NCBI GenBank assembly: GCA_024220525.1
Contig: JAMYWO010000159.1
Span: forward strand, 23,084-87,083
DNA length: 64,000 bases
Direction: 5' to 3'
Source of the DNA: Cochliopodium minus
Taxonomy: Eukaryota > Discosea > Himatismenida > Cochliopodiidae
The notes beneath the pieces were generated by a model. That model was given only the letters and a program-made list of their open reading frames with translations. It was not told the DNA's origin and ran no database searches. Made by a program: the position numbers and the translations under genes. Position 1 is the first letter of the stretch; the number at the start of each line of letters is the position of its first letter. This document shows positions 52,054 to 63,114 of the stretch, piece by piece.

Positions 52054-55000
52054 TTATGCACAGAAAGTTTCAACAGTCACAACTTGTATTCTCTCAGTCC
52101 AGATAGTTTCAGTGCCAAGAGCACCAGTAGGATTAGAGAAAGTGAAACCATCATTGTTAAAGTCAAAGTTATAGTTAGCACCTTCGTATGGGTATTGATA
52201 CTCGGGAGGAATGTATCTGCAAGAAAACGAGTTGTCAGTTTGGTAGTATGGATCTAATTCATGGAAGAAGCAGAAGTAACCACAACCTTTTCTTTCAATA
52301 GGGGAAAGATCCCTGAGAGTGACAACTCTACAAGAAGGGTCATTAATAGTTCTTTGTATTGAATCTTTGTCATAATAAGTCATTTGAGAGATGATATTTT
52401 GTGGGGTAGATTGGAATACACCTGTTGTTGATGAGATAGATTGAAAGCAACTAGTAAGAATTGTTGAACCACAAGCAGGATTGGTAGTGAAGTAAGAGGA
52501 TGGGCAAGGTGATGTTTCAGAAGAAAAACTATACAAATTCCATTGGCAGTCACCCCCTACTAAAACTTTACCACTTTCACACTCTTTAGAGAATATTCTT
52601 GTTTCATTGGACAATAAATTAAAGTTTTGGTTCGGTGCATTGACGGTTCCATTATATGTTACGAAAACACTAGAAAATAAGTTAAAATCTAAGAAAGAAT
52701 CTGCTGGTTGATTGGCAGAAAAGTCAGGGGTTAACACAACAGAACCAGCCATCAAATGGAAGGCTTTTCTTTTTCTCGAAAGAGATGAGATTCCCTGACC
52801 TGCAGGACCAACAGGACCAGTGTCTCCTTTTACTCCTTTATCTCCCTTTGTTCCTTTATCTCCGTTTACTCCTCTATCTCCTTTATCACCCTTGTCACCT
52901 TTAAAGTCTCCTTTTTCTCCTTTCAAACCAGTTGCACCAATGTCTCCTTTATCTCCTTGGTTACCTTTCTCTCCATTGAGACCAATTTCTCCTTTATTTC
53001 CTTTATCACCTTTGTCTCCTTTAAAGTCTCCTTTTTCTCCTTTCAAACCAGTTGCACCAATGTCACCTTTATCCCCTTGGTTACCTTTCTCTCCATTGAG
53101 ACCAATTTCTCCTTTATTTCCTTTATCACCCTTGTCTCCCTTAAAGTTTCCTTTTTCTCCCTTCATACCAGCATCTCCTTTATCTCCCTTGAGACCTTCT
53201 GCACCATTCGCACCAACTTCTCCTTTAAGACCAATTTCTCCTTTATTTCCTTTATCACCCTTGTCTCCTTTAAAGTCTCCTTTTTCTCCTTTAATACCAG
53301 TCGCACCAATGTCACCTTTATCTCCTTGGTTTCCTTTCTCTCCATTTGCACCAGTTGCACCAACTTCTCCCTTGAGACCAATTTCTCCTTTATTTCCTTT
53401 ATCACCCTTGTCTCCTTTGAAGTCTCCCTTTTCTCCTTTCAAACCAGTTAATCCTATTTCTCCTTTATCTCCTTGGTTTCCTTTTTCTCCTTGAATTCCA
53501 AATTCTCCTTTTTCTCCTTTAGATCCCTTAAAGTCTCCCTTTTCTCCTTTGAAACCTTGATCTCCCTTATTACCCTTTTCTCCTTCTTCACCTTTTTCTC
53601 CCTCGTCTCCTTTTTCTCCCTTGTTACCTTTGATACCTTGTTCCCCAATAGTCCCTTTATAACCCTTATCTCCCTTTACTCCTTCTTCTCCTTTTTCTCC
53701 TTCAATCCCTTTCGAACCAGTAGCTCCAACTTCTCCTTTCAAACCAGTAGCTCCAACTTCTCCTTTATCTCCATTACTTCCTTTATCTCCTTGATTACCT
53801 TTGTCTCCTTTTCTACCAGTTTCTCCAAGATCTCCTTTGTCTCCTTTAATTCCTTTGTGTCCTCTGAATCCTTTGTCACCCTTTGTACCAATTTCTCCTT
53901 TTTGCCCTACTCCAGTATCTCCTTTTACTCCTTTAAGACCTTGATCTCCTTTTTCTCCTTTGATTCCCAATTCTCCTTTTTCACCTTTGTATCCATATTT
54001 TCCTCTAGGTCCTTGGTCTCCTTTTGTACCTTTTTGCCCAGTAAAACCTCTCTTTCCATGATAACCCTTTGGACCAACTTCTCCTTTAACTCCTTGGATA
54101 CCTTCATCTCCTTTTGTTCCTTTAAATCCTCTGTCACCCTTATCTCCCTTTGTACCAATTTCTCCTTTTTCTCCTTGGATACCTTGTTCTCCTTGGTCTC
54201 CTTTAAATCCTCTGGATCCTTTAAAGTCTCCTTTTTCTCCTCTAAATCCTCTTGGTCCTCTATATCCCTTTTGTCCTCTCAACCCTTCTCTTCCTCGAAT
54301 ACCTCTTTGTCCTTTCAATCCAATTTCTCCTTTTTGTCCGATTTCTCCCTTTTCACCGATTTCTCCCTTTTCACCAGTGTCCCCCTTTTCTCCCTTAGCA
54401 CCTCTGCGTCCTTTTTCTCCTTGTTCACCTGTTTTACCTCTGTAACCTTTGTCTCCCCTGACTCCCTTTTCTCCTTGAATACCTTGGTTACCTTTTTCTC
54501 CTTCTTCTCCCTTTTCTCCGATATCACCTTTTTCTCCCAAGTTACCAGTTGCACCAATTTCTCCTTTTTCTCCTTGGTCTCCTTTATTTCCGGGGAGCCC
54601 AGTTTTTCCCAATTTTCCTGTGTAACCTCTAGGTCCTCTAACTCCTTTTTGTCCCTTTTGACCCTCACCAATGTCTCCTTTGTTTCCTTTTTCTCCAGTT
54701 AACCCGAGATCACCCTTATCTCCCTTAAATCCTTTAACACCTTGATCTCCTTGGTTTCCTTTGTTACCTTTAAATCCTCTTTTTCCATTTCTTCCTTGGA
54801 TACCTTTATCTCCTTGTTCTCCTTTGACTCCTTGATCACCTTGATCTCCTTTCAAACCAGTGTCTCCTTTGGAACCTTTATGACCTCTGTGTCCGGTATA
54901 ACCTCTTAATCCTTCAATACCTTGTTCTCCTTTTAATCCAATATCTCCCTTCTCTCCTTTGTCTCCTGTGTTTCCTTTTGAACCTTGAAAACCTCTGTGT

Positions 55001-61000: not shown

Positions 61001-63114
61001 CTTTTACCCTCAATTCCTTGATCACCTTTTTCTCCTTTGTCTCCTTGAATTCCTTGTTCGCCAACACCGATTTCTCCTTTAGCACCTCTTGCTCCAGTCT
61101 TTCCTCTTTTTCCTTCTACTCCTTGAATACCTTGAATACCTTGTTCTCCTTGAATACCTTGATCACCAGTGTTTCCTTTGTGACCTCTTTGCCCTCTTTG
61201 TCCAGTTTTTCCTTTTTCTCCTTGAATACCTTGAATACCTTGATCACCTTGAATTCCTTGAATACCTTGGTCACCAGTATTTCCTTTTAGGCCAGTTTTT
61301 CCTCTGAACCCTCTTTTGCCTTGTTCTCCTTTTTCTCCTTGAATACCTTGAATACCTTGTTCTCCATGAATTCCTTGAATACCTTGGTCACCAGTATTTC
61401 CTTTTTGTCCTCTTTGTCCAGTTTTTCCTCTTTTACCTTCAACTCCTTTAATACCTTGTTGTCCTTGAATCCCTTGTTCACCTTGAATACCTTGATCTCC
61501 TTGATTTCCCTTTAATCCTTGATATCCTCTTTGTCCCCTTTTTCCTTGTAAACCCAATTCTCCTTTTTCACCTTGAATACCTTTTTCACCTTGGATACCT
61601 TGTCCAATATCTCCTTTTTCTCCTTTAATACCTCTGAATCCTCTCTTCCCTTGTGCCCCTTGAATACCTTTTTCACCTTCTCCAATCTCTCCTTTTTCTC
61701 CTTGAATACCTTGATCTCCTTGGTTTCCTTTGTTTCCTCTATACCCTCTCTTACCTTGTTCTCCTCTTTCTCCCTTTTCACCTAGTCCAATCTCTCCTTT
61801 TTCACCTTGAATACCTTGATCTCCTTGATTTCCCTTTAATCCTTGATATCCTCTTTGTCCCCTTTTTCCTTTTAAACCCAATTCCCCTTTTTCACCTTGA
61901 ATACCTTGTTCACCTTGGATACCTTGTCCAATATCTCCTTTTTCTCCTTTAATACCTCTGAATCCTCTCTTCCCTTGTGCTCCTTGAATACCTTTTTCAC
62001 CTTGTCCAATTTCTCCTTTTTCTCCTTGTATTCCTTGGTCTCCTTGATTTCCTTTATTACCTCTATATCCTCTTTGACCTTGGGAACCTTTAATACCTTG
62101 GATTCCTTGGAGTCCTTGCTCACCTTGGTTTCCTTTTTCACCTTGATCACCTTGGTTTCCTTTTGTTCCTTGGTATCCTCTTTGTCCTCTTTTACCTTGT
62201 GCTCCAATTTCTCCCTTTTCACCTTGTCCAATCTCCCCTTTTTCTCCTTGAATTCCTTGGTCTCCTTGATTTCCCTTGTTACCTCTGTATCCTCTTTGTC
62301 CTTGGGCACCTTTAATACCTTGGATTCCTTGGAGTCCTTGCTCACCTTGAATACCTTGTTCACCTTGTGATCCAATTTCTCCTTTTTCACCTCTGTATCC
62401 TCTTTGTCCTTGGACACCCTTACCTTGAGGACCTTGAATACCTTGAGGACCTTGGATACCTTGTTCACCTTGATCTCCTTTGTTTCCTTTATTACCTTGA
62501 TATCCTCTTTGTCCTCTTTTACCTTGGATTCCAATATCACCTTTCTCTCCTTTTTCTCCAATCCCAATTTCTCCTTGGATTCCTTGTGGTCCAAGTTCAC
62601 CTTTTTCACCTCTATATCCTCTTTGTCCTTGAACTCCATTGATTCCTTTTTCACCAGAATCACCTTTTACACCTTTAATCCCAAAATCTCCTTTATTTCC
62701 TTTCAGCCCTCTATATCCCCTTTTACCATCTTTTCCATTAATACCATTCATTCCATTAATACCATTTTCCCCCTTTTCACCTTGAATACCTTGTTTTCCT
62801 CTTGATCCTCTTCTACCTTTAATACCTTGTATACCAATATCCCCCTTTATTCCAACCCCTTGTTCACCTTTTATACCCTTTATTCCATCATTACCAGTAT
62901 TTCCTTTTTCACCATCTCTACCAGTTAATCCAATGAGTCCTTTTTCACCTTTAAGACCCATTTCTCCTTTACGTCCTCTTTGACCCCTTTCTCCATAATT
63001 TCCTTTATATCCTCTTCTTCCTTTTTGGCCTTTCTCTCCTTGTTGAGAATAGGCCAAATCTATAAATATAAATATCATTACAAGTAACAATATGAAGAAA
63101 TTTTTAGATCGCAT
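52054..63114 (-). CDS. giant secreted collagen-like protein, single exon, 3,686 residues
   Basis: The chosen start [20 protein letters not shown] at 63114 gives a clean signal peptide ending AYSQQ; the frame stays open for another 41 codons upstream, but these are hydrophilic and A/T-rich. From about 63030 to 52800 lie roughly 3,400 residues of Gly-X-Y, about 1,130 triplets, several times longer than fibrillar collagens. X and Y are mostly Lys, Glu, Asp, Gln, Arg and Ile ([24 protein letters not shown]); proline is rare. KGE and KGD triplets can form stabilising salt bridges, as known in bacterial collagens. Short interruptions occur (GEGEKG, GDFKG). The C-terminal domain of about 245 residues starts [14 protein letters not shown] and has ten Cys. 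There are no introns. The protein probably forms an extracellular coat or matrix. Confidence 0.93.

Follow-up and report, generated by a model that had tools for sequence, protein, structure and literature searches.

According to one account (PMC7824840), the charge pairs KGE and KGD can raise the melting temperature of a collagen peptide by 15.4-17.5 °C, and Arg at the Y position of the Gly-X-Y repeat stabilises the helix about as well as hydroxyproline. Collagens have also been described in unicellular eukaryotes: type IV collagen in Ministeria, and GXY repeats in Monosiga, Salpingoeca and Dictyostelium (excerpts of PMC5560861 and PMC5395295). A lysyl oxidase has been reported from Acanthamoeba (PMC4448552, in excerpt). 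Here we compare these systems with a giant collagen gene in a 64,000-nucleotide stretch of Cochliopodium minus DNA (contig JAMYWO010000159.1 of assembly GCA_024220525.1, positions 23,084 to 87,083; hereafter, the window). We think it fairly probable that this gene encodes a secreted, trimeric, fibre-forming collagen of a eukaryotic microbe, held together by salt bridges and probably by lysine hydroxylation and glycosylation, and deposited in a coat, a wall or a matrix. We infer the secretion, the trimerisation through a C-terminal domain (CTD), the modification, and the place and role of the protein. The features of the gene are:

52054..63114, minus strand: coding sequence of the giant collagen, 3,686 amino acids in a single exon (open frame, start context, TAATAA end)
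63046..63114, minus strand: signal-peptide-like leader (paralogues have similar leaders behind A-rich 5' ends)
63115..63237, minus strand: in-frame extension of 41 amino acids to an upstream ATG, judged untranslated
52792..63039, minus strand: collagen region, amino acids 26-3441, with 1,117 Gly-X-Y triplets in 37 blocks and 36 interruptions
61472..62082, minus strand: recent 324-nucleotide tandem duplication within the collagen region, 94% match, pN/pS (non-synonymous relative to synonymous differences per site) of 0.12
52869..53171, minus strand: 120-nucleotide repeats at the C-terminal end of the collagen region, with GDFKG-type interruptions
52057..52791, minus strand: CTD, 245 amino acids, 10 Cys, beta-rich in the structural model

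The reading frame and the collagen region

The open frame spans 52054-63237 (minus strand) if it is read from the first ATG, and 52054-63114 if it is read from the Met with the hydrophobic leader. This second Met is the likely start (window position 63114), because a run of A precedes it, because a hydrophobic leader results, and because several paralogues begin likewise. With the upstream extension the leader would be buried, and several paralogues start at an ATG behind an A-run, which is why we judged the extension to be untranslated. The leader occupies roughly amino acids 1-23 (the cleavage point was guessed by eye), in agreement with a preliminary description of the gene that was made from its letters alone. 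There is no further N-terminal domain. In a profile search, the frame (the C159 rows, open frame of 3,730 amino acids) gave many matches to PF01391 above 27.2 bits, so the protein belongs to the collagen repeat superfamily. Outside the collagen gene, the window is 28% GC (72% A+T).

By script, the frame holds 1,119 Gly-X-Y triplets; two of them sit in the CTD, leaving 1,117 for the collagen region. The preliminary description had given about 1,130 triplets in one exon; the single exon stands and the count comes down. At X the most frequent residues are Glu (21.9%), Asp (16.2%), Ile (9.7%) and Lys (8.7%), and at Y they are Lys (38.0%), Gln (17.0%) and Arg (14.2%). Acidic residues (Asp or Glu) therefore make up 38% of X and basic residues (Lys or Arg) 52% of Y. 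Charged residues fill 54% of the X and Y places, and Pro occupies just 33 of 2,238 (1.5%), with 27 at X (2.4%) and 6 at Y. These counts bear out the earlier impression of a proline-poor, charge-rich repeat.

The region is broken in 36 places. In 27 of these a single residue separates the glycines, in 7 there are three residues (GDFKG or GNFKG), and in 2 there are four. The mean block is 31 triplets long and the longest is 133, so there is no long uninterrupted run of the kind that marks animal fibrillar collagen. Nor was any single fibrillar stagger prominent in the periodicity of the array, where the leading lags were 3-12, 27, 33 and 36 residues. The rise of a triple helix is 0.286 nm per residue; fully helical, the giant collagen would be about 0.96 micrometre long (1,117 x 3 x 0.286 nm), close to the 1 micrometre estimated before.

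A chance origin of the array is excluded, because the frame is open for 11 kb, because all four Gly codons are used (GGA 739, GGT 363, GGG 47, GGC 10), and because synonymous change exceeds non-synonymous change among the internal repeats. The two copies of the 324-nucleotide duplicate differ by 11 synonymous and 5 non-synonymous changes over 95 codons (the pN/pS given above), and pN/pS is 0.18 for the 120-nucleotide repeats. Pooled over seven repeat pairs, which include the 324-nucleotide duplicate again, pN/pS is 0.38, a figure that is biased low as the pairs were picked by protein identity. The preliminary description had named assembly expansion of the array as what would overturn it. That does not hold for the whole array: windows of 36 amino acids have a mean identity of 0.67 to their best other copy in the array (mostly 0.55-0.7 in a printed sample), and about half of this is shared Gly, which makes up one third of each window. 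Because these windows have diverged, assembly expansion could not have yielded all of it. The lengths of the recent short duplications at 61472-62082 (94%) and 52869-53171 (93%) could be mis-sized in the assembly.

Charge pairs between neighbouring triplets

We compared the residue at Y with the residue at the next X, across 36 pairs of residue classes, after shuffling the order of whole triplets, which preserves the composition and the pairs within triplets. Lys-Gly-Asp/Glu, the count of KGE and KGD that the preliminary description had called for, was found 255 times versus 156 expected (z about 12) and tops the 36 class pairs. Arg-Gly-Asp/Glu was found just 15 times versus 59 expected (z = -7.6). 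This makes it the joint most depleted class pair, level with Lys followed by a hydrophobic residue at the next X (59 observed, 112 expected, z = -7.6). Two triplets on, the Lys-acid excess falls to z = 4.6 and the Arg-acid deficit to z = -4.6. Three triplets on, the Lys-acid pair is no longer among the extremes and the Arg-acid pair is slightly raised (z = 1.5).

The same pattern recurs in the genome. Among 18 arrays of at least 100 triplets each (the giant collagen and 17 other frames), 15 have a Lys-Gly-Asp/Glu excess with z of at least 3.3. In the other three (z of 0.6, 1.7 and 0.6), Lys makes up 69-84% of Y, which leaves little room for variation. The Arg-Gly-Asp/Glu deficit reaches z = -2 or below in 14 of the 18 arrays, and the remaining four lie between -1.3 and +1.4. 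This is the pattern that would be expected if Lys-Gly-Glu/Asp bridges had been selected and Arg, which by itself stabilises the helix at Y (PMC7824840), were used in other places. With Lys-Gly-Glu/Asp above chance and little proline, the giant collagen has the two marks by which charge-stabilised collagen-like proteins are recognised as working, and charge stabilisation of its predicted helix has statistical support.

The gene family, its modifying enzymes and the neighbouring genes

We searched the genome (44.65 Mb in 598 contigs) with two CTD queries and found the domain at 28 loci or more. By contig these are C159 (the giant collagen); C477 (three); C323 (two); C264; C210 (three); C12; C267 (two); C436; C235 (two); C76; C97 (two); C289; C24; C65; C77; C184; C31 (two); C160; and C228. 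One more CTD, outside the 28, was spotted by eye in a frame on C22. Collagen frames or exons were seen with 21 of the 28. Six others (C77, both on C31, C160, C228 and the second on C97) lie outside the set of 20 stretches that we fetched, and the fetched stretch of C65 holds no frame with at least 15 triplets. A collagen frame of 12,063 amino acids was dropped; its length was inflated by a run of N.

An alignment of 18 CTDs, including that of the giant collagen, has 13 invariant columns. Nine of these are Cys, and a tenth Cys is present in at least 90% of the sequences. The majority consensus contains the motifs GGDCQW, CGYFCFxHQL, SCRYIPP and VTVExFC. In 16 of the 18 proteins, the CTD is followed by a charged, coiled-coil-like tail of at least 59 amino acids beyond the last Cys, an assessment made by eye and with a crude heptad score, whose values are low for several of the proteins (0.08-0.38), with no coiled-coil program. 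The giant collagen and its paralogue L045 are sisters in the CTD tree (support 94/97, just below the tool's mark).

The CTD is predicted to be compact and beta-rich (pLDDT 83.8, pTM 0.79), and structure searches with this model gave no clear match to any known fold; against a viral structure library, nothing reached an E value of 0.001 (the best was 0.029). With hmmscan, the CTD matched no Pfam family at 0.001. None of the 18 aligned CTDs matched COLFI, the C-propeptide domain of animal fibrillar collagens, even at 0.1, and hmmscan found no C4 (NC1) domain, the mark of type IV collagen, in the CTD. Genome-wide searches for COLFI and for C4 also returned nothing; the control queries were equally silent, and we do not claim that either domain is absent from the genome. 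No relative of the CTD was confirmed in Pfam or the PDB (collections of eukaryotes lay outside the search). In scans seeded by one short peptide pattern, none was confirmed in viral contigs or in prokaryotes (one genome each of 84,980 species). PHROGs gave no family for the giant collagen and one family, at 0.0023, for one of three proteins scanned. We found no report of this family of CTD collagens in the literature searched, whose coverage leaves out many subscription journals.

Two or three collagen genes lie together on each of C477, C323, C210 and C267 (L045-L048, L050, L051, L053 and L054), on partly opposite strands. This clustering suggests a lineage-specific expansion. Some relatives have quite different collagen regions: those of L058 (C76) and L061 (C24) are rich in GPTG and GVTG and weakly charged (13% and 7%) and carry the same CTD, and a relative on C97 is nearly uncharged (4%). 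To judge from L058 and L061 and the charged paralogues, one type of CTD serves two very different helix chemistries.

By a crude test for a leader and a CTD, the giant collagen and 10 of the 17 other aligned paralogues are single frames from leader to CTD (L053, whose leader looks false, was left out of this count). The preliminary description had stressed the lack of introns. This is correct for these genes and fails for a sister gene, L063 (C184, minus strand), whose collagen region is cut into about 14 segments. Reading these by eye, we found that the run starts one codon past an AG in 10 of the 14 segments and that most end at a GT behind an X codon. The junctions therefore look to be in phase 0, with X on one side and Y on the other (GGAAAG/GTAAAA and CAG/AAAGGA are two examples), and 7 of the 10 AG-preceded segments have lengths that fit a multiple of nine bases. 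Animal fibrillar collagen genes have exons of 9n bases; the pattern in L063 is alike, and common origin need not follow. As the family holds both unbroken and intron-rich members, the single exon is no mark of foreign origin.

The genome also encodes candidate collagen-modifying enzymes. A PLOD-type lysyl hydroxylase (L042, on C130) was read from two adjacent frames. Its catalytic part matches structure 6fxk, which we take to be human LH3, at 7.7e-40 (139 bits), versus 1.9e-32 (115 bits) for 6ax6, presumably mimivirus L230, and the part that precedes the catalytic domain matches LH3 at 3.9e-24. L042 retains the RPHHDSS and HPGR-THxHEG stretches. A second lysyl hydroxylase locus on C57 is 68-70% identical to L042 and comes in two pieces, one with an internal TAA. 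No viral relative of the lysyl hydroxylase was found in a narrow scan by exact peptide patterns, which is weak evidence of absence. GT25 domains gave 13 matches on nine contigs. So the genome has the genes of a hydroxylysine-glycosylated collagen system, namely a lysyl hydroxylase and GT25-family genes.

The preliminary description had also proposed a search for a prolyl hydroxylase. Such a search does turn up a prolyl 4-hydroxylase (P4H)-like gene with its own leader (L044), which matches 2jig, presumably the algal prolyl 4-hydroxylase, at 2.2e-12. L042 and L044 lie about 5.5 kb apart on C130 and are a possible collagen-processing pair. For lysyl oxidase there is one exon-sized match (E = 7.3e-7). 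PF13640 has eight matches in the genome, three of which were followed by sequence search; one of the matches, L037, resembles OGFOD1 by eye. Given PLOD-type lysyl hydroxylases, GT25 domains, a P4H-like gene and a lysyl oxidase exon, the contrast drawn earlier between hydroxyproline in animals and salt bridges in bacteria does not fit this genome. The earlier observation stands and was under-stated. It had missed that the gene belongs to a multigene family, that the CTD is conserved and that the enzyme genes are present. With Lys at 38% of Y and these enzyme genes present, the giant collagen is likely to gain further stability from hydroxylysine and its sugars.

Other genes in the window include an intron-containing polyphosphate kinase 1 gene at 13987-18583 (minus strand; PP_kinase_N and PP_kinase_C), which is unusual in eukaryotes, although this enzyme is known in Dictyostelium. 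A frame of 2,022 amino acids at 21355-27423 (minus strand) matches vinculin and talin IBS2B at its C-terminus, and a link from cell adhesion to an outer collagen layer is possible. Adjoining the collagen gene, at 48280-51660 (plus strand), is a frame of 1,126 amino acids with a GLUG match, which may be a surface protein; TTG, the first codon listed for it, is unclear as a start codon. Frames at 40790-46480 (plus strand) have Sel1-like repeats by eye, and the single piece that was scanned gave no Pfam family. There is a U-box protein in several exons at 27969-30692 (minus strand), and Sec61 alpha, also in several exons, at 32037-33791 (plus strand). The last exon of the latter is nearest in the PDB to Sec61 alpha isoform 1, presumably the animal protein.

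Proposed working, alternatives and known systems

We propose that the chain would enter the endoplasmic reticulum, where the disulphide-rich CTD would gather three chains and set their register (in most paralogues, with the coiled-coil-like tail behind it). The triple helix would then zip toward the N-terminus. Inter-chain Lys-Gly-Glu/Asp salt bridges would hold the nearly proline-free helix, together with Arg at Y where no acid follows, and hydroxylysine and sugars from the PLOD-type and GT25 enzymes would probably add stability. The often-interrupted rods, up to 1 micrometre long, would be deposited in a coat, cyst wall or matrix, where lysyl oxidase would perhaps cross-link them.

Several observations weigh against this proposal. 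Charge pairing is not raised everywhere in the giant collagen: Asp/Glu-Lys/Arg pairs within triplets number 188 versus 223 expected (z = -4.2), and in-triplet acid-base pairs are raised (z of 3.6 or more) in just 4 of 21 arrays. Internal repeats inflate the z values of the shuffle, and the Lys excess itself accounts arithmetically for some of the Arg deficit, as the acids at X are fixed in number. For both reasons, we gave more weight to the recurrence of the pattern across paralogues than to any single z. The giant collagen and L045 have no coiled-coil-like tail and end 1 and 8 amino acids past the last Cys, so their trimerisation would depend on the CTD alone. Shorter rods, rather than one long helix, may result from the 36 interruptions. 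Finally, the modifying enzymes may serve other substrates, such as the more proline-rich paralogues.

The interruptions, with a mean block of 31 triplets, and the high charge (54% of X and Y) would also suit a protein with no continuous triple helix, that is, a hydrated, extended, charged polymer, like a mucus glycoprotein, with short helical stretches. We consider this unlikely: blocks as long as 133 triplets keep Gly in every third position, and a disordered polymer would not need acids to follow Lys so far above chance. Similarly doubtful is that the protein is stored or extruded (as an extrusome filament or prey-catching thread) instead of built into a coat or wall. Its length and charge would fit a fast-swelling fibre and the sequence fixes no location, yet the leader is the sole sequence feature that bears on location. 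That the length is an assembly artefact, or that the gene is decaying and no longer under selection, is highly improbable. The near-identical tandem copies at 61472-62082 and 52869-53171 are what such an account has to offer. Against them stand a frame open across 11 kb, an array much of which is well diverged, a CTD that is intact and conserved with the paralogues, and pN/pS of 0.12-0.18 in the recent copies (0.38 pooled over the seven pairs, with the downward bias mentioned above).

A further account is that the collagen genes were seeded from giant viruses, in which the lysines of collagen-like proteins can be modified and which have their own lysyl hydroxylase-glycosyltransferase, and were then expanded by the host. 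An Indivirus-like collagen protein has been reported as a putative viral transfer in the AT-rich C. minus (PMC9198077, in excerpt), and mimivirus L230 is described as hydroxylating and glucosylating viral collagen (PMC9614988, in excerpt). A patchwork query from the giant collagen recovered 345 viral stretches; the 80 retained ones, from 79 loci, gave 66 distinct frames of at least 30 triplets. Since similarity to the query decided which frames were included, they are evidence that this type of helix chemistry exists elsewhere and say nothing about how frequent it is. Their median Pro content at X is 2.2% (values up to 33% occur among the rows printed), and their Lys-Gly-Asp/Glu excess has a median z of 5.3. 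However, their median charge is 24% of X and Y versus 54% in the giant collagen, and the longest has 517 triplets versus 1,117 (viral loci were cut to a few kilobases). Furthermore, the scan of viral contigs confirmed no relative of the CTD, the viral structure library gave nothing at an E value of 0.001 (best 0.029), L042 scores higher with human LH3 (139 bits) than with mimivirus L230 (115 bits), and the narrow pattern scan found no viral relative of the lysyl hydroxylase. Giant-virus seeding is thus improbable in our view. The preliminary description had left the origin as either independent or laterally seeded. Simple lateral seeding of the CTD is now disfavoured by the pattern-seeded scans of viruses and of the 84,980 prokaryotic species; eukaryotic genomes were outside the search, and the choice is narrowed only that far.

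Returning to the secreted, charge-stabilised fibre collagen, its helix chemistry is already of a known kind. What is new is that scale, family size, a CTD lacking recognised relatives and animal-type modifying enzymes occur together in a probable non-animal. A bolder claim would be that a non-animal lineage possesses a full procollagen system of its own, based on a large gene family. Its CTD, of unseen fold, would stand in for the animal C-propeptide; its helix would follow a nearly proline-free code, in which Lys precedes an acid and Arg does not; PLOD and GT25 enzymes would supply hydroxylysine-linked sugars; and the product would be micrometre fibres round single cells. We put this forward tentatively, as quite possible but somewhat short of probable. 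A probable non-animal with such a gene family and such enzyme matches would make the origin of collagen processing testable outside animals, and its genes would give materials work a natural source of long collagens with little proline. The family also offers a testable rule: Lys is set before Glu or Asp, and Arg is not.

To turn to systems already known, the collagen-like proteins of bacteria (for example, streptococcal Scl2) are described as forming a stable helix without hydroxyproline, partly from charged residues (PMC7824840), which the giant collagen would share. In that account, the Scl2 constructs have 75-237 residues and are Pro-rich at X, as compared to 1,117 triplets and 2.4% Pro at X here, and the giant collagen also differs in its eukaryotic leader, its CTD and the modifying enzymes in its genome. 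Unicellular eukaryotes (Ministeria, Monosiga, Salpingoeca, Dictyostelium and the virus-like collagen of C. minus) likewise have collagen repeats outside animals, whereas the excerpts of PMC5560861, PMC5395295 and PMC9198077 describe no such family size, CTD or enzyme set. In the mimivirus system with L230, the lysines of collagenous proteins are reported to be hydroxylated (PMC9614988), as we infer from genes for the giant collagen. That system differs in that the CTD has no confirmed relative in viral contigs, that GT25 here lies at loci apart from the lysyl hydroxylase, and that the lysyl hydroxylase here is closer to human LH3. Animal fibrillar procollagens differ from the giant collagen in their C-terminal domain (the CTD is neither COLFI nor C4), and the giant collagen has almost no Pro and many interruptions. 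What it shares with them is a layout of leader, long collagen region and C-terminal Cys-rich domain, along with matches in its genome to lysyl hydroxylase, GT25, P4H and lysyl oxidase.

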